Source: a virus. From it: a stretch of DNA of 29,044 nt. The stretch spans positions 1 to 29,044 of the IMG/VR virus record IMGVR_UViG_3300023216_001562; one strand, written 5' to 3'. Below are positions 3-22,278 of this stretch, one piece after another (positions within the stretch are counted from its first letter, which is position 1; every line of letters begins with the position of its first letter). The notes under the pieces were generated by a model. The model worked only from the letters and a program-made list of their open reading frames with translations, did no database searches and was not told the DNA's origin. Made by a program: the position numbers and the translations under genes.

Positions 3-1733
3 GATATTAGCGAAGACGGCTCCGTTAATTTAACGATCAATTATGTGGCAGCGATTGAGGGAAGGATGATGTCTCCCCGCGCAGATCTTTTATATGTAGA
101 AAACCTCGACGATCTCAACGAACTTCTGAGAGCCAGAAGACGACGCGATGCAGCCCGTGATTTAAAGAATGATGTAAGAACAGAAGAATCTAGTAATTTC
201 GTCGAACGCGCTCTTGGTTTCAAGTCCAATAAGCAAGTAGCCGAAGAAATATTCAAAGAGGCTGAAGCCAAAGTTGCCGCGCTCAAAAGAGCCCCGCGTT
301 TAGAAAGTTATAGTCGTCTTTTACGCTCGATTGAGAATCCTCAAAATCGTCGCATTTTATATTTCAGCCTCACCAAAAAACAGAAGGAGGATTATTTGAA
401 GATAAATATTGAGAAATTTGAGGATATAAAAGATCAAACCCGAAAGCTGACCAAGCTTCAAGCACATCGCCGAACGCGTCTAAAAAAAATCCTGGAACAG
501 GGTGGCTTTGATTTATCTGCGGCAAACGAAAACGAATCACACAACACTTTATCTCGCTTGAATCGTCTTATTATATCGGCTGGTGAAAACCAAAAAAAGA
601 TAAAAGAACTCATCGCCGAAGCCATCAAAGAAGCCAAGAAAAATGAAAAAAGCTTAAAGCCTCGCAACCGCCTTAACTTTTTCTTTTTGGGAGATCTTAT
701 TAACTCTGCAATTGATATTATACAGACCGAAGACAGCGGCGAAAAGTTTGATGCTCATAATCAGTTTCGTTTTATGTTGGGCACCATAGATATGGTTAAT
801 CCCACAGATCCAACCGGAGCCTTGGAAGCAGTTCCATTGAGCGATATTCCGATCTCTCTTAATACTTTTAATATTTGGTTTCAAAAAAATATAATTTCAA
901 AAGAACTTAATAAAATGCCATTTCAAACATTTATACGACGAATATGTTCTGAGCTGGTTGTGGGAGCCCTAAACCCCTCAAGCTATGGTTCCCTCGGCAA
1001 AGCCACCCACACGCAAATGAGTATGGGTAATTTTTCCTTGGGCAAAAAAGTGGGAAAAGTTCTAGTAGGGAGAAAACGAATCAAAGACGCCAGTCTCGCC
1101 ATTCGAAATTCCACACAGTCAAAGGGTTCAAAAGATCTTCAACAATATATGTTTTTATATATTGGGGGGGCTGTTGGAAATTCTCTGAAAGGTGATGCGA
1201 CGAAAGATAAAACACAAGGTATTTTCCATTTATATAGTGGGAGCGATAAAGGAATTATGAAAAAGCTTTCGTTTACACGAACGGATCTTCCATTTGCGCG
1301 TGAATCCCGAATAGCTAATGCAAAAGACTCTTCCATGGGAAATTTTTTGTTTAGTGATGTTTATAAATGTTCTATTACTATGATCGGTAATCCAGTATTT
1401 AAGCCGGGTATGCTAATCTTTGTTGACCCCGCATCCATGGGTCTTGGCAACGCGGCTAAAACAAACTCGAAGTCTTTTAGAATTGGTATTGGTGGTTATT
1501 ATTTAGTCACGAAGGTTGAGAGTGCGATTGAGGATGGGAGATTCGAAACAACTTTGACTGCGGAATCCACAGCCCCCATTCCTTCGTTGGAAAAAATCAA
1601 AAGAACACAAAGAGTCCCCGGCAATTCAACATCACCTCCAATTATCTTCAATGGAGTTGCGGAGGAGGAATATATGGAACCCGATCCCGCCGCAGGTCGA
1701 GTCCCCACTTCCGGTGCTTCAAGGTTTCGGTAA
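3..1733 (+). CDS. Baseplate/tail-hub-like structural protein (5'-partial)
   Basis: The reading frame is open back to the first bases of the window, reading DISEDGSVNLTINY before any plausible start, so the true N-terminus lies upstream; the GTG at 45 is probably internal. The segment coded around 1360-1580 has the pattern of the last beta domain of gpD/T4 gp27-type tail hubs: GNPVFKPGMLIFVDP, then GGYYLVTKVESAIEDGRFET, then an alternating-strand end. The middle is helical and charged (many Lys/Arg/Glu), and the C-terminus is a Pro/Gly-rich tail. It is followed after 20 bases by another large structural-type gene, which fits a tail/baseplate operon. The hub assignment rests on pattern recognition only; a baseplate wedge or other tail protein is possible. 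Confidence 0.55.
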   Translation, partial: DISEDGSVNLTINYVAAIEGRMMSPRADLLYVENLDDLNELLRARRRRDAARDLKNDVRTEESSNFVERALGFKSNKQVAEEIFKEAEAKVAALKRAPRLESYSRLLRSIENPQNRRILYFSLTKKQKEDYLKINIEKFEDIKDQTRKLTKLQAHRRTRLKKILEQGGFDLSAANENESHNTLSRLNRLIISAGENQKKIKELIAEAIKEAKKNEKSLKPRNRLNFFFLGDLINSAIDIIQTEDSGEKFDAHNQFRFMLGTIDMVNPTDPTGALEAVPLSDIPISLNTFNIWFQKNIISKELNKMPFQTFIRRICSELVVGALNPSSYGSLGKATHTQMSMGNFSLGKKVGKVLVGRKRIKDASLAIRNSTQSKGSKDLQQYMFLYIGGAVGNSLKGDATKDKTQGIFHLYSGSDKGIMKKLSFTRTDLPFARESRIANAKDSSMGNFLFSDVYKCSITMIGNPVFKPGMLIFVDPASMGLGNAAKTNSKSFRIGIGGYYLVTKVESAIEDGRFETTLTAESTAPIPSLEKIKRTQRVPGNSTSPPIIFNGVAEEEYMEPDPAAGRVPTSGASRFR

Positions 1734-1753
1734 AGAGGAGTAAGGCAATAACG

Positions 1754-4700
1754 ATGGCTAAAAAGAAGAACAAAGAAATACCTCTAGTGGATGCTTATTT
1801 GACTTCCGAGGTTTTATCTAACCTAAAACCAAAACCCGGCGAAGAAATTAAACCCGTAGCCACAAATTCAATGCCTTCTGAAGAACTCTTTATTGAGCGC
1901 AAAGAATATAAAGAACTCGCGTATCCCTATAGCAACGATGAAGTGCCTACGCCCATTGATATTTGGTATAACCGTGGGCTTTATGGAAAAATAGATACAG
2001 ATTATAATCCAGTCTTTGTAGACGAAAAATATCTAAAGAGACTCCCGAGCGAAACCGGAGACACCTTTGCATTAAATTTTGTTGTGGATGCCTTTACGGA
2101 TCTACAAAATTACATGCGTATCGCCGCAAACGAAGGAAAAATATTTACTGAAGATACAAAGTTCCTAGCCATGGAACCCAAAAGAGGATGGACTTCAGTT
2201 CAAAATCGCTATTATGAACACATAACAGTTATGTATGAAGGCTTCGCCGCAACCTTTCTAGACCAAGGAAAAAATAAAAGGGAGCTTACCGATTTTAAGG
2301 ATTTTATGAAACTGTTTCAGACCTACCTTAAGACCGTGCAGCCCGATTTTCCATTCACCAGAACAGGATATATCACTTCTAAATATTGCCCCATTACAAC
2401 TACCGGAATTGTTATTGAATTGGAGCTAGCAAGTCATGGCGACGATCAAGTAAAATATGATGATTATATTGGGGATGTAAATTTCGTTTTCTTTACCCGC
2501 ACTGCTCGTCTATTTGGTTTTTGGGTAGATAAAAATGCACCCTGGCGATTAATCGCGGATTTGAAATCAGAGGTGATGCAAAAATATATGAGTCGTTATC
2601 CAGAAGCACCAGTTGAACCACCATTGAGCGGCTCACAACCACAGCTACCACTTCCTTGTGCTCCCGAGTGGTTTGGTGATTTGAAAAATCAAAAGGTGGA
2701 ATTCAAAAAGCCCGGTAGAGAAGATGGGATTGGATACATCGCGGAGTTATTAGATTGTAACGATCCACTTCGCTCTAGGTTTAAGATTCAAGAAGTTGTA
2801 GATGAGATTGAAATTGAATTGATACAATCGACGGATGTCATTGTACCCAAGATCCAATATGCTGATGGGCACAATTCCTCGGTCGATTCTAAGAGAACAG
2901 CAGCTCAAATTATAAATATTGCTGCGCCTCATATGTCAGGTGTTGGCACAGCGGGTCGGGGACAGCCAGAGGCTTCCGCATATGGTCGCTCTTATCTTAG
3001 TCGATATAGGTGGCTTACTGCCCCCCTTCCTGAAGTGCGTAATGGTCAAACATTGCGGGAAACGGTTGAGAAATATTATGTAGAAAGTTCTACTTATTTT
3101 ACCCGTCAATCCGGCTTGGGCGCGTTTAAGCCACAGCCTATTTTATTGGATGCGAGCGATAGCAAAATTAATTATCTCAACGAGAATATTACAAAATATA
3201 ACTGGAAAGTTTTAGAGGATTCTGATTTTCCGAATCAACAAACTCAATTTTTTCTTACCCCCGACACCAGCGGTGGTCCACTTAGTTCAACAGATGGAAT
3301 TACTACGCCTACACCTCAAATTTATTTTATTCCAGTTCGGGAAGGCTCTCATACAATTCAATTGACGCTTACCGACAACAATGGTGATTTACGAGATGAA
3401 GAAGCCATTGTCACCCTTAACCTCTGTACGCTAGATTGGCAAAAAACTGCCGACGATTTTATATTGACTCCTGGCATTGATGCAGCGGAAGCTTTTGGTC
3501 CCGATTGGATCTATAGTAAACTAAAAGATGAGATTGCTCAAGTGTGGGCTGAGTGGAATCAAAAATCCAACGAAGAGTGGTTTAAATGGCTATCTTCTGT
3601 GCGAAACGAAAAACTCGAAAATATTATGGGCGGCACCCCCGCCGAAAGACAATGGCTTCCTTACTCGCTCGCCGCAAGCACGGCTCCCACAGGTCCAATC
3701 TTTCCCTTTCCATATAAGCGGCAAAGCGCGGCGGCTATCGAAAGTTTCAGAGCCGGAAACTGGTCGTCCCCAGAAATAGAACCCAGCATCGGTGGCCCAA
3801 ACGACCCTTTGTGCCAAGGCGCTTTACTCGGCGACGATCAACTCCCACAGACTGGAGAATTAGAATTTTTACGAACTCGTTTAGGGTGGGATATTGTAGG
3901 GAAGTATAAATTATTGACGGCATGGATACAATATCTCATGTTTGAACCTAGTGGGGCTTTCGTAGAGACAGTCCCACGACTCCTGTATCCAGTCTTGGCC
4001 ACCCATAATACTTGGAAGCGATTGTTAATCCGCGCTGAAATCGGGCCGGATATATACTTAACTTCCACCGGCTTCAACGCCGTCGGCCTTGGGACAGCAA
4101 ACTGTCTCCATCAATTTGTTTATAACCAGTGGCAAGCAAGAAATTTATCAGCACCAGCCGCGTTTGGTCAGTCGGCAAATCATCGATACGATTTTCATCC
4201 ACCACCACTTTATGGGAATTGTGCAACAAAAATTGAGCGATACAATTTGCTGTCACCTACAGGTGCCTCGGGAGGATTCCCCATAAAAGACTATATTTTC
4301 CGTGGCCCCAGCGCCAGCGGTGCTGCCCGTCAAGGATATCAGTCCTATAAGGTTCCTACAGCAGTAAACTTAACGAGCCTACTTCCCCGTGAAAAAGGCT
4401 TGAACGATAATCAAATGGGAAATATGTTTGGCGGCGCATTGGCAGATTTATTTGAAATTATCCTTGTGGTAAGTCGTCAACTCTTAGGTGGTGCGCCTGT
4501 GCGGGAACTCACCGGAAACGTAAACCCACCAAATTTTCCCGGTGTGCCCCCCATCAGCCCAGAGCCCCTCCTAGAACATTTCACTTTTACCGAGTGGTTT
4601 ACGGGATTCGCCCGCGAGCCCTTTAGCGGAATGGGTGTTGTCCCTTTTGCACCATTTTGGCAAAGACTCCCATCCGGCCCCGGCATCGGGAGTGTCGATG

Positions 4701-5941
4701 AGAATTATCGTAGTGATTTTGTTATAAAGAAAATAGATTTTACAGGAGCCCTGACTCGAATTTTAAACGGTCGTCAGTGGAACGAATCACACATCCCAGG
4801 CACACTCGCCACGCCTTATGAACTTTGGCGTACTAGGGTCTATCACATTCCGGCATCGTATGCTCGTCCTTTGTTTGTGGATGATCCACGATTTCGAGAT
4901 GCCATTATCCCTAGCCAGATAATGCCTGGTGCCCCATCTCCTACGGTCGTCACTTCAGAATTAGATGAGGTTGTTCGCTATTTGACATCGCTAGATCCTA
5001 GTGACAACAAACCAGGAGTGCCCACTTATGATAACATGTTAACTTTTGTAATAGCGGTTGCTTCAGGAGAGAATTGCGGCAAGATTCTTCTCCCCGATGC
5101 TATTCCAAGCGCAGATCCTCCACCCATAACAATTAGCTTAGACACATTCGAAACACTTCCTTTTGATTATGGTGGGAGTTTCCCAGACGAGCCCCCCCGC
5201 GAAAAAGATTGGGTATTATCTTTTGGAGATGTCGAGGAATATTCTAATAAGCGAGAACAATATACTCAAGCCATAATCGACCACCCACGTCTGCTAAGGG
5301 AATGGGAGTTACGAAAACTCGCATATGATAATTGGGTTATTGCTTACGCTGATTGGCTCACCCTTCCGCGCTTAAGTTTTGATAATTTGTATTTGCATAA
5401 TCCACCCGTTCTTCGATCTCCTGGTGAATATGTCCGATCTTTTGAAACCGACATTGATTTGTTACAAACTTATACATTGAATTTTTATAACTCTTATGTG
5501 GCGAAGCACCCCTTCATTGTCACTAGCCAATTTAATAAATGTGGAGACGGAACATTACAGAAGATAGAGACTCGCGAATTGTTGAGTGGCGTAGAACTTA
5601 TGCGAACATATGACGATTTGTTTTGGCTTAAGTTTTATTTTGCTATACGCATTTCTGAATCAGATCGAATCTTATCCTTTAGTGAAGAGGATGCGATGAT
5701 AAAACAGATAGAAAATCTCTATTCCAATTCATTGGCATCAAGTGATTCCAATAAATTTACGAAAGCACTACAGAGGATTGCATTTGAGACTAACGGGGTC
5801 TTCGAGGACAAATCAGGATTGACGGTTCAAAACAAAGATGATAAAATAATAAATAAATTCAAAAATATAACTGAACAAAAAACCTTGACCTTGCGTGATG
5901 TCTATGATATTGTTCTACCTGATGGATCTTTCCAACCATAA
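1754..5941 (+). CDS. Large virion structural protein (1395 aa) with PKD-like domain
   Basis: I do not recognise the family as a whole. Residues about 460-557 look like a PKD/Ig-type beta domain (LLDASDSKINYL, then Y-x-W, then REGSHTIQLTLTDNNGD), a fold common in secreted and virion surface proteins. The rest is rich in Pro, Trp and Tyr with no transmembrane segment or signal peptide. The C-terminal 100 residues turn helical and charged. A purine-rich GAGGAG at 1735-1740 and TAAGG at 1741-1745 precede the ATG. Size, composition and position directly after a hub-like gene point to a baseplate or tail-fibre-attachment protein; that role is inferred. Its last 20 bases overlap the next gene, where a promoter for the replication block is embedded. 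Confidence 0.6.
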   Translation: MAKKKNKEIPLVDAYLTSEVLSNLKPKPGEEIKPVATNSMPSEELFIERKEYKELAYPYSNDEVPTPIDIWYNRGLYGKIDTDYNPVFVDEKYLKRLPSETGDTFALNFVVDAFTDLQNYMRIAANEGKIFTEDTKFLAMEPKRGWTSVQNRYYEHITVMYEGFAATFLDQGKNKRELTDFKDFMKLFQTYLKTVQPDFPFTRTGYITSKYCPITTTGIVIELELASHGDDQVKYDDYIGDVNFVFFTRTARLFGFWVDKNAPWRLIADLKSEVMQKYMSRYPEAPVEPPLSGSQPQLPLPCAPEWFGDLKNQKVEFKKPGREDGIGYIAELLDCNDPLRSRFKIQEVVDEIEIELIQSTDVIVPKIQYADGHNSSVDSKRTAAQIINIAAPHMSGVGTAGRGQPEASAYGRSYLSRYRWLTAPLPEVRNGQTLRETVEKYYVESSTYFTRQSGLGAFKPQPILLDASDSKINYLNENITKYNWKVLEDSDFPNQQTQFFLTPDTSGGPLSSTDGITTPTPQIYFIPVREGSHTIQLTLTDNNGDLRDEEAIVTLNLCTLDWQKTADDFILTPGIDAAEAFGPDWIYSKLKDEIAQVWAEWNQKSNEEWFKWLSSVRNEKLENIMGGTPAERQWLPYSLAASTAPTGPIFPFPYKRQSAAAIESFRAGNWSSPEIEPSIGGPNDPLCQGALLGDDQLPQTGELEFLRTRLGWDIVGKYKLLTAWIQYLMFEPSGAFVETVPRLLYPVLATHNTWKRLLIRAEIGPDIYLTSTGFNAVGLGTANCLHQFVYNQWQARNLSAPAAFGQSANHRYDFHPPPLYGNCATKIERYNLLSPTGASGGFPIKDYIFRGPSASGAARQGYQSYKVPTAVNLTSLLPREKGLNDNQMGNMFGGALADLFEIILVVSRQLLGGAPVRELTGNVNPPNFPGVPPISPEPLLEHFTFTEWFTGFAREPFSGMGVVPFAPFWQRLPSGPGIGSVDENYRSDFVIKKIDFTGALTRILNGRQWNESHIPGTLATPYELWRTRVYHIPASYARPLFVDDPRFRDAIIPSQIMPGAPSPTVVTSELDEVVRYLTSLDPSDNKPGVPTYDNMLTFVIAVASGENCGKILLPDAIPSADPPPITISLDTFETLPFDYGGSFPDEPPREKDWVLSFGDVEEYSNKREQYTQAIIDHPRLLREWELRKLAYDNWVIAYADWLTLPRLSFDNLYLHNPPVLRSPGEYVRSFETDIDLLQTYTLNFYNSYVAKHPFIVTSQFNKCGDGTLQKIETRELLSGVELMRTYDDLFWLKFYFAIRISESDRILSFSEEDAMIKQIENLYSNSLASSDSNKFTKALQRIAFETNGVFEDKSGLTVQNKDDKIINKFKNITEQKTLTLRDVYDIVLPDGSFQP
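5885..5913 (+). promoter_or_regulatory. Candidate sigma70-type promoter for the polA-like gene (leaderless layout)
   Basis: TTGACC (5885-5890), a 17-base spacer, then TATTGT (5908-5913), and the ATG at 5922 after 8 bases. Transcription would begin at or within one or two bases of the start codon. There is no Shine-Dalgarno sequence before this ATG. The site lies inside the 3' end of the preceding structural gene, at the boundary between the virion block and the replication block. Confidence 0.45.
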
Positions 5942-7154
5942 ATCAGATACCTCTTTGTTCGAAATCGTAGATCAAAAACAACACTGTAAGAGCATTTATT
6001 GCGATAATCACATTGTAGAAGATCCAGATTACGGGTGCCTCTCCAAGACTTGGGCATATCACTCAACCCTAAAGGGTTATGATATCAAGTATGCGTCCTT
6101 GTATGCCAAGACGAGAACCCTTGACGAGTGTTGCCCCGATGAATTAAAGGGAGAGTGGATGACCATTAAGAAAAAATACTCGGCTTATATTAAGTCTTTC
6201 CAGACTGGCTTTTGTGAACTGGATGAGGAGTGTTTTTATAATTTAGTTCCACACAGTTTTGTAATTGAATATTTTAATCTCAAGAGTCAAATAACAGATC
6301 ATGTCTTGTCTACCATCCCAGAACCAGAAGACTATAGTTTTTTAGTTGAGTTGTCGGAATTATTAACTGATATCCGAGATCATAAATTATTAATTGAGCC
6401 CAAGGAAATTGCTAACAAACTTCACGAAACTAAAACTCGAAGTTTCTTTTCCAAGCTACATGCGGTAAGACCATTTATCGACTATAATATGTTTGGGACT
6501 ATTACTGGTCGCTTGACCACACACAAAAATTCTTTTCCTCTGCTTACAATGAGCAAAGATTACCGGCGAGTGGTTAGGCCAACGAATACTTGGTTTATCG
6601 AATTGGATTTCAATGCGGCGGAGTTGCGTTGCCTTCTCTCCCTTAACGATCAAGAACAACCACAACAGGACATACATGATTGGCATGGATCAATTTTTAA
6701 TAGGTTATCGGATCACAAGTTGAGCCGTGATGATATTAAACGCAAAATCTTTGGATGGCTCTATGGTCCTTTGGGGGCATCACTTGGTATTCCCCAAGTA
6801 GAAAAACACTATGACAAAAGAAAAGTATTAAATAAATATTGGGACGGAAGTGTCGTCACTAATCCGTTTGGTCGAAAGATTATAGCTGATGAGTTTCATG
6901 CTCTCAATGCAATTATACAAAGCACCACTTCCGATACATTTTTGCGTAGAGCAATAGCAGTAAATAAATTATTAGAAAATAAAAAGTCCTTTACAATGGG
7001 GCTCATTCACGATAGTATGGTAATAGACTTTCATCGGGAAGAGAAAGATCTTATCGATGAAATAATTAAAGAATTCGGCGATACGGATTTGGGAAAATTC
7101 AAAGTGAACACCAGCCTTGGAACACACTTTGGAAACTTAAAGAGGTTTAGATGA
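5922..7154 (+). CDS. Family A DNA polymerase, polymerase domain only (PolA-like)
   Basis: Template-directed DNA synthesis enzyme of the Pol I family, 410 aa from ATG 5922. All polymerase motifs line up with Klenow spacing: TGRLTT near residue 195-200; motif A with D229 and E234 (Klenow D705/E710); O-helix R269, K273, F277, Y281 (R754/K758/F762/Y766); motif C H363-D364-S365. Motif C has Ser where Klenow has E883. The first ~180 residues do not show 3'-5' or 5'-3' exonuclease motifs. In-frame GTG 5895 and ATGs 5898 and 5904 are alternative starts, but none has an RBS; 5922 was chosen because a promoter ends 8 bases before it. It overlaps the next gene by ATGA. DnaE is also encoded in this window, so repair, gap filling or recombination synthesis is a more likely role than bulk replication. 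Confidence 0.85.
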   Translation: MDLSNHKSDTSLFEIVDQKQHCKSIYCDNHIVEDPDYGCLSKTWAYHSTLKGYDIKYASLYAKTRTLDECCPDELKGEWMTIKKKYSAYIKSFQTGFCELDEECFYNLVPHSFVIEYFNLKSQITDHVLSTIPEPEDYSFLVELSELLTDIRDHKLLIEPKEIANKLHETKTRSFFSKLHAVRPFIDYNMFGTITGRLTTHKNSFPLLTMSKDYRRVVRPTNTWFIELDFNAAELRCLLSLNDQEQPQQDIHDWHGSIFNRLSDHKLSRDDIKRKIFGWLYGPLGASLGIPQVEKHYDKRKVLNKYWDGSVVTNPFGRKIIADEFHALNAIIQSTTSDTFLRRAIAVNKLLENKKSFTMGLIHDSMVIDFHREEKDLIDEIIKEFGDTDLGKFKVNTSLGTHFGNLKRFR

Positions 7155-7459
7155 CAATTAAAAAATATAACAAACTTGTAAGAGACAAGATCCCACAGAT
7201 TATTAGTGAACAGGGAAAGAGGTGCAAGGTCTATGTAGCGGTCAATGACGACTACCAACAAAGACTTAGGGATAAACTTACAGAAGAAGTTCAAGAATTT
7301 CTTGAGGAACCATGCGTGGAAGAGCTGGCTGACATTCAGGAAGTTCTTTTATCAATTGCTGAAATAAACAAATGGGATCTCGAAGGAGCGCGAGTTACCA
7401 AGAACCTCACACGCGGAGGCTTTTGGAATCGTTATGTTCTCCAAGAGGTTTCAGGATGA
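7151..7459 (+). CDS. MazG-like nucleotide pyrophosphohydrolase
   Basis: A 102-aa all-alpha NTP pyrophosphohydrolase. The N-terminal YNKLVRDKIPQII is the signature of the short MazG/phosphoribosyl-ATP pyrophosphohydrolase-like group. The metal-binding pattern EExxE...ExxD is present as E45-E46-x-x-E49 and E58-x-x-D61. The C-terminal GGFWNRYVL also matches this group. Such enzymes hydrolyse NTPs or dNTPs to monophosphate and pyrophosphate; in phages they are thought to adjust nucleotide or alarmone pools, but the substrate is not predictable here. AGAGG lies about 5 bases before the ATG, which overlaps the polymerase stop codon. Confidence 0.8.
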   Translation: MTIKKYNKLVRDKIPQIISEQGKRCKVYVAVNDDYQQRLRDKLTEEVQEFLEEPCVEELADIQEVLLSIAEINKWDLEGARVTKNLTRGGFWNRYVLQEVSG

Positions 7460-7632
7460 GAAAGAAATATAAATTAGTTTATATAGAAGATGGTGAAGAG
7501 GTTACATTAGTGAGCACAGATCCAGAAGCGATAATGATTGTCCTCAACGAGAAGGTTTCCAAGTATATTGGTCGTTATCGCAATAGCCCCACATTTGAAT
7601 TGGTTTCGTATGGCGAGACTAAAGAGAAATAA
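7456..7632 (+). CDS. Small conserved-type hypothetical protein (58 aa)
   Basis: Starts at the ATG that overlaps the MazG stop (ATGA), with AAGAGG about 7 bases upstream; the longer in-frame reading from 7372 runs through the MazG gene and is not needed. The product begins MRKKYKLVYIEDGEE and looks like a small beta-alpha-beta domain with a charged C-terminus. No cysteine cluster, membrane segment or known motif. Tight coupling on both sides places it in the nucleotide/replication operon. Function unknown. Confidence 0.65.
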   Translation: MRKKYKLVYIEDGEEVTLVSTDPEAIMIVLNEKVSKYIGRYRNSPTFELVSYGETKEK

Positions 7633-8505
7633 ATGGATACAGTAATCGGACTAGGAAAAGCAGGTTGCGCCATTGTAGATAACTTTGCTCAATATTCTCA
7701 ATATAAGGCATATAAAATAGACGTTGGTTTAACGCCTAGTGCGAATACGTTTGGTTTGAAAGAGGCTCAAAACATTGAAGATTATGAAGAGAATTGTCCT
7801 GATGCGTCTAAATTTTTTGAAGGAGTGAGTGGAGATATTCTATTTGTCGTTGGTGGCGGTGGGAAAGTCTCGCTTGCATCACTATCGCTCTTAGAATCTC
7901 TTCGGCACTGTAACATCAATGTGCTATACATAAAGCCAGAAGAAGATTTTTTAGGAGCCCAGGGAAAATTAATTAATAATTTGGTTTTTAATGTCTTGCA
8001 AGAGTATGCTCGGTCTGGTGTTTTTGAGCGACTTTATCTTGTGGACAATGTTTTAGTAGAGAAGGCAATCCCTCCTACGTCGTTGAAGAATCATTATATT
8101 AATCTCAATGAAGCCATTGTGTCTTCGCTGCACATGATTAATGTATTCAATCATATTACCCCCGTGACTGACACATTTTCTTCTTTACCTATTGGAACCC
8201 GCATTTCTACTATTGGATTTGTAGATCCAAAAAAAAATGTAGATAAGATGTTTTTTTCTCTTGACAACGTGAGTGATCGGGTATACTATTATGCTTATAA
8301 CAAGATGAAACTGGAAACAGAAAACAATTTGTTCGGAGAGATAAAAAACTCTCTTAAGAGAAAAATGGAAGCCGACGTTCGGGTTTCATACGGAATCTTT
8401 GAAACTGATTATGATGAAGATTACATTTATTGTGTCGCTCATACTTCAGCCATTCAAGGGCAAACAAAAATTGGGGGGTCGGAAGATTTGCCGACCTCAC
8501 CTTAA
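7633..8505 (+). CDS. Divergent tubulin/FtsZ-superfamily protein
   Basis: 290 aa. The order of elements follows FtsZ: an N-terminal VIGLGKAGCAIVDNF (Rossmann beta1 and glycine-rich T1-like loop, residues 4-17), a glycine loop VVGGGGKVSLASL at 72-84 in the place of the GGGTGTG tubulin signature, then a helix ending in YLVDN (135-139; compare FtsZ 'IPND'), then an H7-like helix near 157-170. The C-terminal half ends in an alternating strand/helix domain. The T7 loop that carries FtsZ's catalytic aspartates is not conserved (VTDTFSSL), and the signature loop has Lys-Val-Ser instead of Thr-Gly-Thr, so GTP hydrolysis may be altered or lost. Phage tubulins such as PhuZ position phage DNA, but whether this one polymerises is unknown. 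It sits directly before the ssDNA-binding protein gene. Confidence 0.55.
   Translation: MDTVIGLGKAGCAIVDNFAQYSQYKAYKIDVGLTPSANTFGLKEAQNIEDYEENCPDASKFFEGVSGDILFVVGGGGKVSLASLSLLESLRHCNINVLYIKPEEDFLGAQGKLINNLVFNVLQEYARSGVFERLYLVDNVLVEKAIPPTSLKNHYINLNEAIVSSLHMINVFNHITPVTDTFSSLPIGTRISTIGFVDPKKNVDKMFFSLDNVSDRVYYYAYNKMKLETENNLFGEIKNSLKRKMEADVRVSYGIFETDYDEDYIYCVAHTSAIQGQTKIGGSEDLPTSP
8477..8496 (+). promoter_or_regulatory. Hairpin just upstream of the ssDNA-binding protein RBS
   Basis: GGTCGG (8477-8482) pairs with CCGACC (8491-8496) across an 8-base loop. It covers the last codons of the tubulin-like gene and ends about 7 bases before a perfect AAGGAG (8504-8509), which is followed by the unstructured A/T-only leader ATAAAATAAA and ATG 8520. 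In T4, gene 32 is repressed by its own product through a structured element followed by an A/U-rich unstructured leader; the arrangement here is similar, but the role is inferred. Confidence 0.4.
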
Positions 8506-8519
8506 GGAGATAAAATAAA

Positions 8520-9251
8520 ATGGCATTAGATTTAGCAAAGATGCGAGCGAAACTACAGGATTCTGAATCGGGTGGGAAGAAAAGTGATAATGCTTTTTGG
8601 CGACCAACCGAGGGGGATCAGGAGATTCGACTTGTACCAACTGAGGATGGAGATCCGTTCAAGGTTTTCCACTTTCATTATAATTTAGGTGACGACGTTC
8701 GCGGCGGCGTATTGTGTCCCAAACGGCAGTTTGGTGATGCTTGTCCGGTTTGTGAATTCGCTTCACAACTATGGAAAGAGGGAACTGATGAGAGCAAGAA
8801 AATGGCAAAGAGCCTTTTTGTTCGTCAACGATTTTTCACACCTGTAATTGTGCGGGGTGAAGAAGAAGCGGGTGTTCGCATCTGGGGTTATGGCAAGACA
8901 ATTTACGAAGCGTTGCTTGGTTATGTCTTGAATCCTGATTACGGTGACATCACCGAGGTACAGTCGGGAGTTGATTTTACTTTGACTTATACGCTTCCCA
9001 AAACAAAGGGTGCGTTTCCTGTAACTAATCTTGTGCCAAAGCGCAAGTCATCGGCACTTGCCCCTAAAGGTGAAATCAAAGCTCTTTTGGATTCAATTCC
9101 TGATGTGGATGCTTTGTTTACTAAAAAAAGCACCAGTGAGGTTCAGGCTATTTTGGAATCGTATCTTGATCCTTCGGGCGCGACGATGGAAGCTGTTAGC
9201 GCCACCGAACCTTCCGGTGTGGATGATGCCATTCGGGAATTATCAGCGTAG
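8520..9251 (+). CDS. gp32-type single-stranded DNA-binding protein
   Basis: 243 aa, slightly shorter than T4 gp32 (301 aa). The zinc site of the gp32 family is present with close spacing: H53, C66, C75, C78 (T4 H64, C77, C87, C90), in the segment around GGVLCPKRQFGDACPVCEF. The N-terminal LAKMRAKLQ resembles the gp32 cooperativity region. The OB-fold core follows, and the C-terminus carries several acidic residues, where gp32 proteins bind partner proteins. It coats ssDNA during replication and recombination and should cooperate with UvsX and the helicase downstream. Strong AAGGAG RBS with 10-base spacing, consistent with high expression. A strong terminator hairpin follows. Confidence 0.9.
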   Translation: MALDLAKMRAKLQDSESGGKKSDNAFWRPTEGDQEIRLVPTEDGDPFKVFHFHYNLGDDVRGGVLCPKRQFGDACPVCEFASQLWKEGTDESKKMAKSLFVRQRFFTPVIVRGEEEAGVRIWGYGKTIYEALLGYVLNPDYGDITEVQSGVDFTLTYTLPKTKGAFPVTNLVPKRKSSALAPKGEIKALLDSIPDVDALFTKKSTSEVQAILESYLDPSGATMEAVSATEPSGVDDAIRELSA

Positions 9252-9347: not shown

Positions 9348-10475
9348 ATGAATATGAGCAACGGAAATTTATCATCAAAAGATATTTTAAAACTAATAAA
9401 TAAAAAAGCGGGAAGAACAATCGCCTTTACTGGGGATCAAGAAAATCCCGCTGACGTAAGGGATTGGATCTCCACAGGCTCACGATGGCTCGACTCCATT
9501 ACATGCCGTGGCCAACTCGCAGGTATTCCAGTTGGTCGCTGCACCGAGATTGCTGGCTTAGAAAGTTCCGGTAAGTCTTATATGGCTGGACAAATCGCGA
9601 GGGAAGCGCAGAAGAAAGATATTAAAGTTCTTTACTTTGATTCTGAATCTACAATGAGTAAAGAGTTCTTAGAGAAACTTGGTTGTACTGTAGATGGCGA
9701 GGATGGTGTTATCATCATTCAGCCTGATGATATTGAACAGGTATTGGAATCAATGGAAACTGTTATGTCTAGTGACCCCGACACTCGTTTCTTGTTTATT
9801 ATTGACTCACTCGCGATGACACCATGTCGTGCGGATCTGGAAAAAGACTTCAATCCCCAATCTTCTATGGCACAAATGCCTCGCGTTCTATCTTTGGGTA
9901 TGAAGAAGTTGGTGGTGTCCTTGTCAAGAACACAATCAACCTTGTTGGTGTTGAACCAACTTAAAACAAATATCAACGTCACTAACCCAATGATGATGCT
10001 TTCACAACCTTGGTTTACTCCTGGTGGGAAGGCGATGATTTATGCCTACTCATTGAGAATATGGCTCACGGGTCTAAAAGGAAAGAAGACTTTTGTAGAA
10101 GATGAAGCCGGGTTCAGAATCGGGAGCGAAGTGAAAGCCAAGCTAGAGAAATCTAAGTTTGGAACACAGGGTCGTATTTGTAATTTTAAAATTCTATGGG
10201 GAGGAGAGGTGGCTGGTATCCTCAATGATGAATCCTTATTGACTGCGATCAAATCTTCGGACAAGCTAAAGAATAGTGGAGCGTGGTTTACGCTTGATGG
10301 ATACGATAAGAAGTTCCAAAGTGCAACCTTCCCTAAGCTAATGCAGACCGACGAAAAGTTTGCCAAAATTGTTTATAAGATTATGGATGAAGAAGTTATT
10401 CGTAAATTTGAAACCAAGACTGGCAACTCAGAAGACTTTTATGGCGATGATGAAGTGAAAGTAAGTGCCGAATAA
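9348..10475 (+). CDS. uvsX: UvsX/RecA-type recombinase
   Basis: 375 aa, the usual size of T4 UvsX (391). The N-terminal part has TGSRWLDSITCRGQLAGIPVGR, typical of the RecA/UvsX entry to the core, followed by Walker A GLESSGKS at 70-77 and the catalytic-type Glu in YFDSEST. Walker B is in FLFIIDSLAM, and TLLVLNQLKTN matches the RecA Gln-containing switch segment; TPGGKAMIYAYSLRIWL matches UvsX L2/core. It forms ATP-dependent filaments on ssDNA and drives strand exchange for repair and recombination-dependent replication. AGGA lies 6 bases before ATG 9348; a second ATG at 9354 is possible. The last 11 bases overlap the next gene. Confidence 0.9.
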   Translation: MNMSNGNLSSKDILKLINKKAGRTIAFTGDQENPADVRDWISTGSRWLDSITCRGQLAGIPVGRCTEIAGLESSGKSYMAGQIAREAQKKDIKVLYFDSESTMSKEFLEKLGCTVDGEDGVIIIQPDDIEQVLESMETVMSSDPDTRFLFIIDSLAMTPCRADLEKDFNPQSSMAQMPRVLSLGMKKLVVSLSRTQSTLLVLNQLKTNINVTNPMMMLSQPWFTPGGKAMIYAYSLRIWLTGLKGKKTFVEDEAGFRIGSEVKAKLEKSKFGTQGRICNFKILWGGEVAGILNDESLLTAIKSSDKLKNSGAWFTLDGYDKKFQSATFPKLMQTDEKFAKIVYKIMDEEVIRKFETKTGNSEDFYGDDEVKVSAE

Positions 10476-11448
10476 AATCTTAATCATAGACGCAATGAAC
10501 GCTTTCATTCGCAATTATGTCACAAACCCAAGCATCAGTGCGAGTGGTTCTCCCATAGGTGGAACGAAAGGTTTCTTGATGTCTTTACAGAAGACAGCAC
10601 GAGATATAAATCCAGATAAAATAATTGTTGTTTGGGATGGTGGAGGTGGTAGTGTAAAGCGCAGAACCTTGGCGAAGCAATACAAAGAAGGACGCAAGCC
10701 ACTCAATTTAAACCGAGCCTATAGCGGCATGGACGCTCTAGAAGAAACACAAAATCGTTATGATCAAATGAAACGCACCATTGAGTATCTTAACAAGATG
10801 CCCGTTGTACAGTTGATGGTAGAAGATATTGAGGCGGACGATGTTATAGGATACATTTGTCATATGCCGTCGCTCAAAGAAGACATAAAGATTATTGTGT
10901 CGATGGATAAAGATTTCTATCAACTGTGCGACGACAAGACGGTGATCTATAAGCCCATCAAGGACATCTTCTTGAATAAGAATCGAATCCTTGATGAATT
11001 TGATATTCATCCTAATAATTTCGCCCTGGCCCGAGCCATTGATGGAGATAAATCCGATAACCTCCCAGGCATTAAAGGCGCTGGCATGAAAACGATTGCC
11101 AAAAAATTAAGTTTCTTGCGGGAAGAAAAATCTTATACTACCGACGAGGTGTTTAGATATTGCCGAAGTGATGAGACTGGGCTCAAGTTATATAAAGATA
11201 TTTTAAAGGAGAAGAAAAAGGTCGAACTAAATTATAAATTAATGCAACTTTATTCTCCCTCGATTTCTGTTAAAAATTCTATACACATAAAAGATACAGT
11301 GGAGCAGTTTGCTCCTACCCTTAATAGAACCGAAGTATTAAAAATGATGGTGACTGACGGCATACATGAATACAACTGGGACTCATTATTTCAGAAATTT
11401 AGATCGTTTCTTGCCGTCCATCGAGACTATTTACTCCGTGGTACTTAA
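10465..11448 (+). CDS. FEN/RNase H-type 5'-3' exonuclease
   Basis: 327 aa, close to T4 RNase H (305) and to the Pol I 5' nuclease domain. Metal ligands are visible in order: D9 in ILIIDAMN, D58 in VVWDG, E123/D125/D126 in EDIEADDVIGY, D148/D150 in SMDKDF, and D193/D195/D198 in the helix-hairpin-helix segment GDKSDNLPGIKGAGMKT. It should remove RNA primers and 5' flaps on the lagging strand, supplying the activity the short family A polymerase lacks. The GTG at 10465 is chosen because the next ATG would delete the essential N-terminal strand with D9; no clear RBS, so it is likely coupled to uvsX translation. Confidence 0.88.
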   Translation: MPNKILIIDAMNAFIRNYVTNPSISASGSPIGGTKGFLMSLQKTARDINPDKIIVVWDGGGGSVKRRTLAKQYKEGRKPLNLNRAYSGMDALEETQNRYDQMKRTIEYLNKMPVVQLMVEDIEADDVIGYICHMPSLKEDIKIIVSMDKDFYQLCDDKTVIYKPIKDIFLNKNRILDEFDIHPNNFALARAIDGDKSDNLPGIKGAGMKTIAKKLSFLREEKSYTTDEVFRYCRSDETGLKLYKDILKEKKKVELNYKLMQLYSPSISVKNSIHIKDTVEQFAPTLNRTEVLKMMVTDGIHEYNWDSLFQKFRSFLAVHRDYLLRGT

Positions 11449-11512: not shown

Positions 11513-12889
11513 ATGACCTTAAAAACCGACACCCCCTCATTTTCAAAATATGGCAAATCCTTTCAGGAAAAACTAGCCTTTCTTATATTAGATGATCGCG
11601 TCTTTGCTGATCGGATGGTAGAAGTGTTGGATGTTGAGTTTTTAGAATTCAAACATCTGCAAGTTTTTGTTCAAAAAATATTCAATTACAAAACAAAATA
11701 CGGGACACAGCCATCGACTGAAATAATGAAGACGATTGTTAGATCTCAAATCGAAGACGAAAATGAAATACTTCAGAAACAAATAAGAGAATATTTTGCT
11801 CACGTCTTATCTGATATTACAATATTACAGTCAGCCGAATTTGTAAAAGACACCGCTTTGGAATTCTGCCGTAAGCAGAAGTTACGAGAGGCGATGATAA
11901 AATCATCTACACTCCTCCAAAAATGTTCTTTTGATGAGATTTCTGTACTCATAAATGATGCGTTGAAGGCTGGTGCCAATACAGATTTTGGTTATGATTA
12001 TATCAAAGATTTTGAAAAAAGATTTGAACTTAGTACCCGCGAAACAATCACCACGGGATGGGAAAAAGTAGATCAGCTCACCGGGGGTGGTGGTGGTCGA
12101 AAAGAATTAGGTGTTGTAATCGCCCCCACTGGCGTAGGGAAGTCAATGGTGCTAGTTCATCTTGGCGCAACTGCCTTGAAAGCCGGAATGACCGTTGTTC
12201 ATTACACGCTTGAGTTAGGTGATACTGTCATTGCTAGTCGTTACGATTCTTGTATCACAGGAATTCGTTTGAATGAAGTCAAGGATCGTAAAGCGGACAT
12301 AAAGAAAACCTTAGATGGTCTAGATGGAAACCTGATCATAAAAGAATATCCTACAAAAACAGCTACCACTAATACCATTCGGGCTCATCTGGAAAAGCTC
12401 AAACAACAAGGCATGAATCCTGATATGATTATTGTTGATTACGCGGATCTGTTACGCACATTGTCTGTGCGTAAAGAAAAGAGAGAAGAATTAGAATCGA
12501 TCTATGAAGACCTCCGCGCAATTATGCAAGAAAATAATTGTGTTGGATGGACAGCTTCTCAAACTAACCGAACAGGGCTCAATCAAGAAATTATCACCAT
12601 GCAAGCAATCTCCGAGGCATTCAATAAATGCTTTATCGCGGACTTTATCTTCTCTGTTTCAAGAACATCAGAAGATAAACAAACAAATGGTGGAAGAATT
12701 TATATTGCCAAGAATAGAAACGGCCCGGACGGCGTGGTGTTCTCTATCTTTATGGACCCGGCAAACGTTGATATTAAGGTGTTAGGGAAATATGAAAACG
12801 ATGCGGCATCATCACCAGCACTCTCAAACGAAGAACAGGTTAAATTTATGTTAGACAAATACAAAAAACTAATAAAGGGGATGAATTAG
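11513..12889 (+). CDS. Replicative DNA helicase (DnaB/T4 gp41-like)
   Basis: 458 aa, the size of T4 gp41 (475). An N-terminal helical domain (about 1-155) precedes a RecA-like ATPase core: Walker A APTGVGKS at 204-211, then HYTLELGDTVIASRYD (the DnaB H1a/H2 region with the catalytic Glu), Walker B MIIVDYADLL with D309 near 305-313, and a GWTASQTNR segment (motif H3 Gln). The C-terminus has YIAKNRNGPDG, matching the DnaB H4/arginine-finger region. It would unwind the fork as a hexamer. No primase gene is seen nearby, so a partner primase must be elsewhere. RBS is only weak (AGGA, 13 bases). Confidence 0.88.
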   Translation: MTLKTDTPSFSKYGKSFQEKLAFLILDDRVFADRMVEVLDVEFLEFKHLQVFVQKIFNYKTKYGTQPSTEIMKTIVRSQIEDENEILQKQIREYFAHVLSDITILQSAEFVKDTALEFCRKQKLREAMIKSSTLLQKCSFDEISVLINDALKAGANTDFGYDYIKDFEKRFELSTRETITTGWEKVDQLTGGGGGRKELGVVIAPTGVGKSMVLVHLGATALKAGMTVVHYTLELGDTVIASRYDSCITGIRLNEVKDRKADIKKTLDGLDGNLIIKEYPTKTATTNTIRAHLEKLKQQGMNPDMIIVDYADLLRTLSVRKEKREELESIYEDLRAIMQENNCVGWTASQTNRTGLNQEIITMQAISEAFNKCFIADFIFSVSRTSEDKQTNGGRIYIAKNRNGPDGVVFSIFMDPANVDIKVLGKYENDAASSPALSNEEQVKFMLDKYKKLIKGMN

Positions 12890-15399: not shown

Positions 15400-16146
15400 A
15401 TGAAAAAAATATCTTTAACAGATTTAAAAAAAATGATTCTAGAGGCTACCGACGCATTTTCGGATCACGGTTCTTTAATGATAGATAAGCCAACAAAACA
15501 GAAACTTAACGAAACTGCTTTATCACGGGTAAAGGATAAGATTGAAAATAAAAATATTCCATTTACCATGCTTACGGCGTTTCGGCGGGTGGATAAAGAA
15601 CTTCCACCCGCCGAGCAAGATGCACAAAGAGCAGAAAACAACAAAAATCAAGAACAACTAAAAGTCCGTCTTAAGGCGTCTGGATTTCCTTGGGTGGACA
15701 TGCGCCGAAGCGGATATAAGGAAGGCGGCCCCGAAGGGGATGTTATGGAAGAATATTCTGTTTTAGTCTATGAGGAACCCAGGGGTGATGTACCCCCAAG
15801 CGGAAAAAGCCTTTTTGACACAGCGCGAACGCTTGCCGCAGATTATGAACAAGATTCATTTCTTTATGGAGGTCCAGATCTAGACAATCCAGAAGAATAT
15901 TCTATTCGCCTTTATACTGATAGTGGCGAACCTATCAAAGACGTTTGGGCTGGTGGCGACAAAGGATATACAGAACTGGGTGTTGTTGAAGATGCTGAAG
16001 CAGAATATTGGTCGATGATCGATAACAAGAAAACTCAATTTAAAGAAATGCACGACAAGTGGAGTGCTTTCAAGCCTAAGTCTAAATTAGAAGCTATGAA
16101 AAAGCAACACTATCTTAAATTAGCTGAAAGTAAGATTCGAGGTTAA
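15400..16146 (+). CDS. Unknown protein with capsid-targeting-like N-terminus (248 aa)
   Basis: The first 16 residues, MKKISLTDLKKMILEA, form a short amphipathic helix ending in I-L-E before Ala, close in form to the T4 capsid-targeting sequence (MKTYQEFIAEA) that is cut after [I/L]-x-E by the prohead protease. A second L-N-E is at 36-38. Residues about 53-125 (TAFRRVDKELPPAEQD, then NNKNQEQLKVRLKASGF, then EYSVLVYEEP) resemble the DUF3293 type of small alpha/beta domain. The C-terminus is charged and helical. RBS AAGGAA precedes ATG by 8 bases. Function unknown; virion-internal location is inferred from the tag only. Confidence 0.6.
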   Translation: MKKISLTDLKKMILEATDAFSDHGSLMIDKPTKQKLNETALSRVKDKIENKNIPFTMLTAFRRVDKELPPAEQDAQRAENNKNQEQLKVRLKASGFPWVDMRRSGYKEGGPEGDVMEEYSVLVYEEPRGDVPPSGKSLFDTARTLAADYEQDSFLYGGPDLDNPEEYSIRLYTDSGEPIKDVWAGGDKGYTELGVVEDAEAEYWSMIDNKKTQFKEMHDKWSAFKPKSKLEAMKKQHYLKLAESKIRG

Positions 16147-17031: not shown

Positions 17032-17934
17032 ATGCACTCCACAATAAGAGACATAAACTTCAATTATGAAAAAATTATTATTGGCTCTAATATTGATGCC
17101 CTTCTCTATTCTTTTTTAAACAATGTTCCTTTTGTTTATGTAAGCATCGATCCTCCTCACCGCTTTGATCATTTTAGTCCCGAGCAAGATTTATCATTCT
17201 TTGGGTTAGAAAACAAATCACACATTCTGGTGAGCCCAACTTCAACTAAAGTTGTTGGGAGCAACAAAGATATATTGTGGGAAAAACTATATTTTTATCT
17301 AACTCTAGCTGGGCTAAATCCCGTGGCGGACAAAGCTTCATCAATCAAGATAGGAGATAAAGAACTTAAAGTCTTCACTCACAAAGCTCGCATGGCAAAA
17401 ATAAACTTTGAGGAGTTAATTATCTTTACCGATGAAGGAGTTTCTGGTTTGCCAACACCCACACAACTTCCACAAAAGAAATATAAAGTTTATGATTGGT
17501 TTGATGTGCGAAGCGGAATGAAACACAAACACGATTATATACAAGATAACACAGAATTCGTTAGTGAAATACTTTTCTATCCCACCGATAGAGTTGACGG
17601 CAACCAAGTTTTTAAAGACGCTGTATCTATTTCTTATCTTACAGAAAAACAACTCAACTCTTTTGATTATTCCGATATCAATGCTCGATTCAAGACCCTC
17701 AAGATGATGAAGGGTGCTGGAATTCGCGGGGCAAGGAATGGCCGTGACATGCTAAACAAAAGTCGTTATAAATATTATGCGGTAAGGATAGAAAATTCCA
17801 TTCGAGAGATCCATTCCCTTGGTAAAACACTTTACGACTCAACAGATACATTAAAGTTTAATGTTGATTCGTTTGATGATATAATAAATAAAAATCCATT
17901 AGTAGAATCTTATGCCGCAAGAATATTCCAGTGA
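17032..17934 (+). CDS. Unknown protein with Rossmann-like N-terminus (300 aa)
   Basis: The N-terminal strand-loop-helix YEKIIIGSNIDALLYSFLNN followed by a strand (VPFVYVS) resembles the beta-alpha-beta of FAD/NAD-binding oxidoreductases and mutases, but the GxGxxG is reduced to G-S-N. The C-terminal half is alpha/beta with MMKGAGIRGARNGRDML and a basic segment. No transmembrane segment. The start ATG at 17032 follows the previous stop by 4 bases without a clear RBS. Its 3' end overlaps the nucleotidyltransferase-like gene by 23 bases, which suggests the two are translated together. I cannot name a family. Confidence 0.6.
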   Translation: MHSTIRDINFNYEKIIIGSNIDALLYSFLNNVPFVYVSIDPPHRFDHFSPEQDLSFFGLENKSHILVSPTSTKVVGSNKDILWEKLYFYLTLAGLNPVADKASSIKIGDKELKVFTHKARMAKINFEELIIFTDEGVSGLPTPTQLPQKKYKVYDWFDVRSGMKHKHDYIQDNTEFVSEILFYPTDRVDGNQVFKDAVSISYLTEKQLNSFDYSDINARFKTLKMMKGAGIRGARNGRDMLNKSRYKYYAVRIENSIREIHSLGKTLYDSTDTLKFNVDSFDDIINKNPLVESYAARIFQ

Positions 17935-18853
17935 AGAAAACATCGTTAACGTTAATTCGTTTCATCTTGCTGGTATTGTTCCTGTGTCCGGGCAGCGGTT
18001 GGATTATAATTTACCTTGGCACGATTGCCTTCAGCCCATAGCACAAAACTTTTTAGCAGTCGAACGAGCCGTGTTGGAGTGTGCCACCGCAGGATGCGAA
18101 ACAATTTGGATTGTCTGCGACTCTAAAATGCAACCATTAATAAAGCACAGACTAGGAGAGATGGTTGAAGATCCTGCTTGGATTGGGCGAAAGTTTGATA
18201 CCTTCCCCAGTGAAAGTAAAAAAGCAATTCCTATTTATTATGTCGAGATACACCCCAAAGATCAGAGGAAAAAAGAATCATTGGTGTGGAGTATTATCTA
18301 CGGCGCAAAAGTGGCTCACAAAACTTGCTATCAATTATCTAAATGGGTAACACCAGATAAATATTATGTAGCGTTTTCTTATGGAGTGTTCCCATCACAA
18401 CACATACGCAAATGGAGAGAAACAATATCCAGACCAGGAAACTTTTTACTAACCACACCAGAAGGTAATTCAGTGATCGATAATGAATACATCGGTTTTG
18501 CATTTGATGCAAGTGAGGTGACAAGATTTTCACAATTGTTTTGGAAAAAAGCCACAGGAGAATTTGATCCAAACTCTCCACTGAGAGATGGAAAATATCC
18601 CATCAACAAACTACCGTTCTCCGAAAGACACTCAGGAAGATATTTTGATCTCAAAGATATTTTTGAAGCCATTGATACTCAAAAGCCAACTACTTGGATT
18701 GAGATGGAATGGTATTATGACATAAGTACATGGGAAGGTTATTGCAAGTATATTGGCTCAGAACATCAAAAGTTAATGAATCGCCCCAAGTCAGATATGT
18801 TAAGATATAGAACTTGGAAGAAAATTGGTATAGATGATGAAGAAAACACTTGA
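17912..18853 (+). CDS. Nucleotidyltransferase-like (GT-A fold) protein
   Basis: 313 aa. HLAGIVPVSGQRLDYNL, then PIAQNFLAVERAVLECATAG and ETIWIVC follow the order of sugar-nucleotide transferases (AGGxGTRL, then K-P...P-I-x-x-K-P-L-I, then a-G-x-x-x-I-v-v-v). The usual catalytic Asp region after the second half ('vlvLxGD') is replaced by YYVAFSYGVF, and the glycine-rich loop is degenerate, so activity may be changed. The C-terminus has several Trp/Tyr-rich segments (WIEMEWYYDISTWEGY). It overlaps the preceding gene by 23 bases and lies after a cupin of the ManC type, so a sugar-nucleotide role is suggested but unproven. Confidence 0.5.
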   Translation: MPQEYSSEENIVNVNSFHLAGIVPVSGQRLDYNLPWHDCLQPIAQNFLAVERAVLECATAGCETIWIVCDSKMQPLIKHRLGEMVEDPAWIGRKFDTFPSESKKAIPIYYVEIHPKDQRKKESLVWSIIYGAKVAHKTCYQLSKWVTPDKYYVAFSYGVFPSQHIRKWRETISRPGNFLLTTPEGNSVIDNEYIGFAFDASEVTRFSQLFWKKATGEFDPNSPLRDGKYPINKLPFSERHSGRYFDLKDIFEAIDTQKPTTWIEMEWYYDISTWEGYCKYIGSEHQKLMNRPKSDMLRYRTWKKIGIDDEENT

Positions 18854-21800: not shown

Positions 21801-22278
21801 TTTTAAACACTGTAAGCATTTATGGCTTTCAACTGTGAGTGATCGACCGAAGAACAAAAAGAGACTTGAGGATAATATAGCCAAGTATTGTGGTGAGGCA
21901 GATTTTACAGAAGAAGAACGAATTGAGAATATTGTTTCTCTTACGGGGATCTTTCCATTTGAGTTGGTCATGGATAAAAAAGTCCGTGAACGTATCGAGC
22001 ACAACTGCGTTCCTCCCATCGCACAATTTGATAAAGACCTGGGGCTGTGTTGGCTTATTCCAAGAAGCGTAACCGTCAGGCAAACAAAGAATGGTCGCGA
22101 CTTTTGGATTATAAATGTGATTGACGATACGTGCCAAAGCACCGACATTAAGTGCTGGAATGTAAGAACTGAAGATAAGGTTCATCTGAACCGACCATAT
22201 ATAGCAAAACTAGATTATGATGAGCAGTGGGGTTTTTCGACTCGTTCTATTAAACATAATTTTATATTAGTGGGGTAA
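18886..22278 (+). CDS. dnaE: DNA polymerase III alpha subunit (DnaE)
   Basis: 1130 aa, near the bacterial length (E. coli 1160). N-terminal PHP domain with all nine metal ligands apparently kept: H11, H13, D21, H46, E76, H128, C (in SSACLGG), and D/H in TCDSHF. A Lys/Glu-rich insert lies at about 83-124. The palm has PSRGSAGGSLVAYALGITQ, PDIDYD (catalytic Asp pair) and KFDILGL (third Asp). The fingers/thumb part has GFLIFQEQIALLAHRLG and GFNKSHAVGYSILSYQ. The C-terminus has a helix-hairpin-helix (SIKGLGEKA) and an OB-like region. It is probably the replicative polymerase of this phage. No dnaQ-type proofreading gene is seen in the window. Own promoter directly upstream; start at ATG 18886. 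Confidence 0.95.
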   Translation: MKSEIPFVGLHAHSTAGSPFDAIGYPQQHMDFAYENGMDALALTDHGNCNGLAYQVLHAKSMEKEGKNFKPIYGCESYFIPSIKEWKVLNEETKADKKRKKEKANIGFAVENEVSSKKVKNAINLRSHLVLLAQNQTGLNNIFKLVSQSYKPGNFYRYPRIDLEMLRDFGEGVIASSACLGGIYATDYWKNKDEGDEKVLEAMRLTTENMLGVLGDRWHGELQWWNSPHQHNLNQFVIQISKEYNLPLISTCDSHFYNPEVWKDRELYKRLHPGLAAFHGDMPESLEQVPHELYPKNGDQMWESYKKYSSQSGEKYDDDLIMESIERTYDIAHNRIEKFYPDNTVRLPSFVIPDGMDEDTALSVAASNGLQSQTKHSQEYLDRLKHELEVIKDRGFSRYFLTMKAIADKATSTQLTGPSRGSAGGSLVAYALGITQVDPIKYGLLFSRFLRADATDYPDIDYDVSDPFVLKEMLVKEWGEDNVVPISNWNTLQLRSLIKDISKLYKVPFQEVNKVTSKMVGESIGPAKRDHGIKTGVYAPTFDEVMKYSTTLQQFLRDYPEVETHVRTLVGQVRSCSRHAGGLVVGENLNQYMPLIYSGGVRQTPWTEGQNVRHLEPMGFIKFDILGLSTLRMIEDAIGKVLERHKGVSSPNFSDIKNFYDENLHPDKLDFDNQDIYKNIFHKGKWAGVFQFTEPGAQGFCKKAKPTSLVDIAAITSIFRPGPLGAKVDRDYVEAKENPQYIKYLHPIIQEVTEETYGFLIFQEQIALLAHRLGKDISLDEGNLLRKLLTKKGTGKGAEEKTKIHTKFVAGCLEKEISKKQAEDLWNTFEYFSGYGFNKSHAVGYSILSYQCAWLLNYYPSEWCAAFLNKEPESKKERAINVVKNLGYDIQEVEINTSGRSWDISTDGQLVQPLTSIKGLGEKAMDQILQNRPFKNVEDFLFNENVSYSKLNKKALDVLVRSGACDSIADARFKHCKHLWLSTVSDRPKNKKRLEDNIAKYCGEADFTEEERIENIVSLTGIFPFELVMDKKVRERIEHNCVPPIAQFDKDLGLCWLIPRSVTVRQTKNGRDFWIINVIDDTCQSTDIKCWNVRTEDKVHLNRPYIAKLDYDEQWGFSTRSIKHNFILVG

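Follow-up and report, generated by a model that had tools for sequence, protein, structure and literature searches.

A tubulin-fold protein apparently stripped of its catalytic and polymer-forming parts in the replication operon of an uncultured tailed-phage clade, with a covarying hairpin ahead of the adjoining SSB gene

The protein described here, TUB, is the 290-aa product of an open reading frame at positions 7633–8505 (+ strand) of the window, that is, of the whole 29,044-nucleotide stretch of viral DNA analysed (IMG/VR record IMGVR_UViG_3300023216_001562). It is recognized as a tubulin-fold protein from its reading frame, family alignment, AlphaFold2 model and structure matches. The TUB family would keep the fold and the guanine-binding residues of the tubulin/FtsZ superfamily, minus the parts for filament formation and GTP hydrolysis, and in hundreds of viral contigs its place among the replication genes is fixed. 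The reading that we favour, with reservations, is that TUB is a tubulin-fold protein that binds GTP or GDP, cannot polymerise, and works with the replication machinery. It may also be, and this we put forward somewhat more hesitantly, that the phage replication machine has recruited a tubulin-fold protein as a subunit or regulator that does not polymerise, in a large clade without cultured members in the collections searched.

TUB is a real gene under strong purifying selection, its pairwise dN/dS against close relatives being 0.08–0.10. In the viral contigs searched, a single-sequence query retrieved 30 related loci, and a query with an alignment retrieved at least 596 contigs with TUB relatives. 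No relative was found by tblastn among GenBank phages, and of 53 pattern matches in GTDB genome contigs none was confirmed. Single-sequence searches of Pfam, PHROGs, NCBIfam, and the PDB with the window protein returned nothing useful; it does not reach the gathering score of PF00091, a family matched weakly by six of the 59 diverse TUB members (best E 0.0055) whose alignment is the basis of all conservation counts given below. No earlier description of the family was found in the open-licence papers to which the literature search was confined. The translation carries both motifs quoted in the original prediction, VVGGGGKVS at residues 72–80 and IGGSEDLPTSP at residues 280–290.

The AlphaFold2 model of TUB, built from a 17-sequence alignment, has a pLDDT of 90.4 and a pTM of 0.89, with low confidence in the last 13 residues only; the protein was modelled without partners, so an unusual mode of filament formation would not be visible to it. 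Among PDB structures compared by Foldseek, FtsZ ranked first (E 2e-13), and TubZ was matched with an E value of 1e-12. The VIA Z scores were 24.2 for CetZ, 22.9 for TubZ, 22.2 for FtsZ, and 21–22 for tubulins. Since these alignments span residues 1–278 or 1–290, both domains are matched. The top viral structure match is A0A6J5RW92 in BFVD (E 4e-13, TM 0.77, 18% identity), a 452-aa protein of an uncultured Caudovirales phage named 'FtsZ Cell division GTPase'; Noxifer PhuZ is also among the viral structural matches. A fold of the tubulin/FtsZ superfamily, with a GTPase domain, a long H7, and a C-terminal activation domain, is thus well supported, to the degree that a confident model allows. The original prediction of a degenerate tubulin/FtsZ-like protein with its elements in FtsZ order agrees with these comparisons, in which another Rossmann family devoid of the tubulin C-terminal domain did not turn up. 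The profile comparison with FtsZ and PhuZ that it had proposed gave weak scores: in hhalign the TUB profile matched FtsZ with E 0.44, PhuZ (phiKZ gp39) with E 0.084, and an intact phage tubulin, called Z below, with E 0.029. These scores alone were rejected as proof of homology between TUB and tubulins.

Within the predicted GTPase domain the T1 glycine loop and the guanine-contacting residues of the pocket appear to be kept. The T1 glycine loop, IGLGKAGC, occupies residues 5–12 (7645–7668, +) and has the family form IGLGxAGC. N139 (8047–8049, +) aligns with N165 of E. coli FtsZ, and at the start of H7 (residues 155–159; 8095–8109, +) Y155 corresponds to FtsZ F182 and N159 to FtsZ N186; we take these three FtsZ residues to be contacts of the guanine. 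Asparagine is found in 58 of the 59 members at N139 and likewise at N159, whereas the average identity per alignment column is 49%; an aromatic residue, Tyr or Phe, stands at position 155 in 51 members. Both asparagines also align with conserved asparagines of the intact phage tubulins Z. The pocket assignments rest on alignments that are weak, given the profile–profile scores, and agree with one another; on these consistent alignments the guanine-contacting Asn positions of FtsZ would be kept in TUB as N139 and N159, and from the conserved residues the protein may be expected to bind GTP or GDP.

With FtsZ, TUB appears to share the two-domain fold, the T1 glycine loop, and the guanine-contacting Asn positions. 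It differs from FtsZ in its length of about 280 aa, its place in a replication operon, and the lack of the GGGTG[ST]G signature, the T7 Asp pair and, in the model, H8, H9, and the H2–H3/T3 region. The T4 loop region covers residues 72–84, VVGGGGKVSLASL (7846–7884, +), and in the alignment it is two residues shorter than that of FtsZ. The GGGTG[ST]G signature occurs in none of the 59 members, the T4 motif of the family being roughly [GSCA]G[SAG]Gx[IV]SGAS. The replacement of GGGTGTG by VVGGGGKVS, on which the original prediction was partly based, holds for the window protein as regards the lost signature, but the GGGG run is confined to the clade of the window's TUB and a few others. The expected place of T7 and H8 is at residues 174–190 (8152–8202, +), where the model shows no helix between H7 (154–173) and S7 (191–198). 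The T7 aspartates had been reported missing, and this applies to nearly the whole family: a D..D pair is present in this region in three members and absent from 56, the window protein included. The FDSKDL of the intact phage tubulin aligns here with TFSSLP. The C-terminal activation domain (residues 191–271; 8203–8445, +) is predicted to be reduced, as judged from the model and its comparison with that of the intact phage tubulin; no helix lies between S7 and S8, and H9 is missing. Residues 43–67, the H2–H3/T3 region, form a four-residue helix only. The model of Z has helices at all three places that lack them in TUB. Subunits of phiKZ TubZ, tubulin, and FtsZ contact one another through the T7 loop, S9, and the base of H8, with T3 also involved (PMC3678025). 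Because H8, H9, and the H2–H3/T3 region, which provide subunit contacts, are missing in the model, canonical polymerisation by TUB is unlikely. The slow-hydrolysing filament suggested in the original prediction becomes less likely for the same reason.

The placement of the gene in a replication operon and next to the SSB gene, as originally described, is correct and conserved across about 100 loci. In the window all genes of the operon lie on the + strand. Upstream are a short PolA-like DNA polymerase of 419 aa (5895–7154), a 102-aa open reading frame (7151–7459) found in part of the family and MazG-like by eye, and, directly before TUB and in close relatives only, a small open reading frame of at most 86 aa (7372–7632) whose stop abuts the TUB ATG. 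Downstream follow a gp32-type single-strand DNA-binding protein, SSB (8520–9251), a RecA/UvsX-type recombinase (9348–10475), a 5'-3' exonuclease of the FEN/RNase H type (10465–11448), and a DnaB-type replicative helicase (11513–12889). The order PolA-[MazG-like]-TUB-SSB-RecA-FEN-DnaB, with the MazG-like frame optional, is found in nearly all of the loci; in some the gap between TUB and SSB amounts to a few hundred bases. TUB is absent from all 80 SSB operons outside the clade that are nearest to Microcystis phage Mel-JY01, and four GenBank phages with related operons have no TUB at that place. It thus marks one clade, and since related phages run the operon without it, it is not required for the SSB-RecA-FEN-DnaB machinery in general. 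A fuller tubulin at the same place in Mel-JY01 was considered and rejected, as the 428-aa gene before SSB matches an S-adenosylmethionine lyase family. Several other genes of the window may be mentioned. The same phage encodes a DnaE-type polymerase (18886–22278, +) besides the PolA-like one. A relative of its 248-aa open reading frame (15400–16146, +) sits directly upstream of TUB in locus L102. Two open reading frames, 17032–17934 (300 aa) and 17912–18853 (313 aa), both on the + strand, had no family match, in Pfam for the former and in PHROGs for the latter.

The 3' end of the TUB frame overlaps a hairpin that leads the SSB gene (8473–8504, +), recognized by covariation and a covariance model. 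Its stem is formed by 8475–8482 and 8491–8498 around the loop 8483–8490, with a bulged A at 8499 and outer pairs between 8473–8474 and 8500–8501. Between close relatives whose proteins are 78–93% identical, roughly the last ten TUB codons do not differ in DNA sequence, wobble positions included, and this DNA folds into the 8-bp stem with its 8-nt loop; hairpins with differing stem sequences precede SSB across the TUB family. Compensatory changes were found in nine of the ten pairs among 56 distinct copies, and the covariation score was 0.93, against 0.28 for shuffles and 0.11–0.21 for slid controls. Since eight stem pairs and a 5' AG or GG were required of each copy, the 100% pairing follows in part from that selection. 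It did not extend to the 3' partners of the outer pairs, to the loop sequence, or to the bulged A; both the loop and the bulged A are conserved. By covariance model the hairpin lies upstream of SSB in 63 of 75 TUB loci, and seven of eight large contigs have one confident copy. The hairpin is single-copy and always stands before SSB; 42 related operons that lack TUB yielded none, and Rfam contains no match to it.

The IGGSEDLPTSP tail, which the original prediction had set apart as a protein feature of unknown use, is present in the window protein; as a protein feature it was rejected, since the DNA is invariant even at wobble positions and fits the covarying hairpin, and no such C-terminal tail is conserved across the 59-member alignment. 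A TTGACA-17-TATAAT-like promoter scoring at least 10 of 12 occurs in 47 of 68 distinct leaders, compared with 2% of shuffles in which base composition alone was kept. This sigma-70-like promoter typically ends 6–7 bases before the hairpin, which would therefore start the SSB transcript. In the window no such promoter was found at that distance, and the hairpin is situated inside the TUB reading frame. As no T run follows the stem, the structure is unlikely to be a transcription terminator. In T4, repression of the gene 32 message by its own product acts through a structured leader, and the 5' portion of this leader overlaps the segG open reading frame upstream (PMC535899). The hairpin of the TUB clade resembles this translational operator in being a predicted RNA structure just upstream of the start of a gp32-type SSB and overlapping an upstream frame; the T4 operator is a pseudoknot followed by UUAAA repeats, whereas in the TUB clade a stem of 8 bp carries a conserved 8-nt loop and a bulged A. 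The hairpin is probably an SSB leader or translational operator.

TUB can be seen as a divergent, stripped-down relative of tubulin and FtsZ that one large clade of uncultured tailed phages may have incorporated permanently into its replication module. It would bind GTP or GDP but hydrolyse GTP barely or not at all and, judging from the elements missing, would build no ordinary head-to-tail protofilaments, working either as a monomer or within some non-canonical complex. Its role might be that of a nucleotide-gated adaptor or scaffold contacting SSB, the polymerase, RecA, or the helicase during phage DNA replication. Such a role is suggested by the fixed gene order, which alone is no proof. 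The hairpin to which the last codons of the gene belong would lead the SSB message, and SSB synthesis is probably under its control, in the manner of the T4 gp32 operator.

The main rival reading, which takes up the disturbance of host FtsZ suggested in the original prediction and is possible yet on balance unlikely, is that TUB antagonizes host division by docking on host FtsZ, where it would serve as a non-productive subunit or a cap and block assembly of the Z-ring during infection. An FtsZ-like fold deprived of its polymer-forming parts would suit that function, docking on FtsZ being allowed by the fold, and several phages encode small division inhibitors. Known inhibitors of this kind, however, are accessory and poorly conserved, whereas TUB evolves slowly and is syntenic in the replication operon of about 100 loci, a placement that antagonism leaves unexplained; moreover, the H2–H3/T3 region and H8, both subunit contacts, are reduced in TUB. 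It is less probable again that TUB polymerises in an unusual manner, like PhuZ or TubZ, into a filament that places or organises replicating phage DNA. The tubulin fold and the location among replication genes would fit such a filament, as would the precedent of the phage tubulins known so far, PhuZ and c-st TubZ, which form filaments that move or centre DNA. With TubZ, the partition tubulin of plasmids and phage c-st, TUB shares the fold (VIA Z about 23) and its occurrence on a mobile element, but not the catalytic and polymer parts, and the conserved neighbours of TUB are replication genes. With PhuZ of phiKZ, the tubulin that centres DNA in jumbo phages, it shares a tubulin fold encoded by a phage; it adjoins SSB, its profile match to PhuZ (see above) is not significant, and it is without the signature, T7, and a conserved C-terminal tail. 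Against such a filament, the signature loop, the T7 Asp pair and, in the model, H8 and H9 are lost, and the tail that could mimic that of PhuZ is not conserved in the TUB family and is explained by RNA.

An intact tubulin encoded by some of these phages raises a further alternative. The 151-kb contig of a close relative (L001) encodes Z, a 402-aa protein with GVGGAGG, LAGGGGGTGSS, and QTFDSKDL, whose model has a pLDDT of 75, with low confidence in the N-terminal 73 residues, and matches TubZ with a Z score of 31.7. In 15 close loci its gene belongs to the head-assembly cluster, with genes for terminase, portal, and head-maturation protease around it. In close relatives of the window's phage the Z family, with its GGGGGTGS signature and FDSKDL in T7, was observed between portal and head-maturation protease at 937–2145 (-) of L112, as well as in L113 and L118–L150; no match to Z was found in GenBank phages. 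That TUB pairs with Z in an alpha/beta-like fashion, or caps its filaments, is improbable. Z is present in three of the 21 TUB-bearing contigs examined, the closest relative and two others, and the two proteins have the same top viral structure match. However, TUB was seen in just one of 21 Z-bearing contigs, most contigs in both sets being fragments; Z was not found in four TUB-bearing contigs of 145–184 kb, nor TUB in a 284-kb Z-bearing contig, although these too may be incomplete. As contigs show one without the other, the pair is not obligate, and a need of TUB for Z as its partner was rejected on this partial co-occurrence. Most improbable is that TUB belongs to a different Rossmann family, as an NAD(P)-binding enzyme whose sole real similarity to tubulins is the GxGxxG of the T1 loop. 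Weak Pfam matches to TrkA_N (seven of 59 members, best E 0.01) and to a saccharopine dehydrogenase domain (five of 59) point that way, but the matches to PF00091 and to TrkA_N are about equally weak, and the structural matches are full-length, include the C-terminal domain and, among the matches listed, all belong to the tubulin superfamily.

A polymerisation-dead protein at work with the replication machinery, the reading that we prefer, raises the testable question of what role a tubulin unable to polymerise could play. Being invisible to Pfam, PHROGs, and NCBIfam, TUB would carry the label hypothetical in any annotation. The covarying hairpin offers a second, independent handle on the control of SSB in these phages. 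If TUB was recruited into the replication machine as proposed, it would be a tubulin at work in DNA replication instead of as a cytoskeletal filament.
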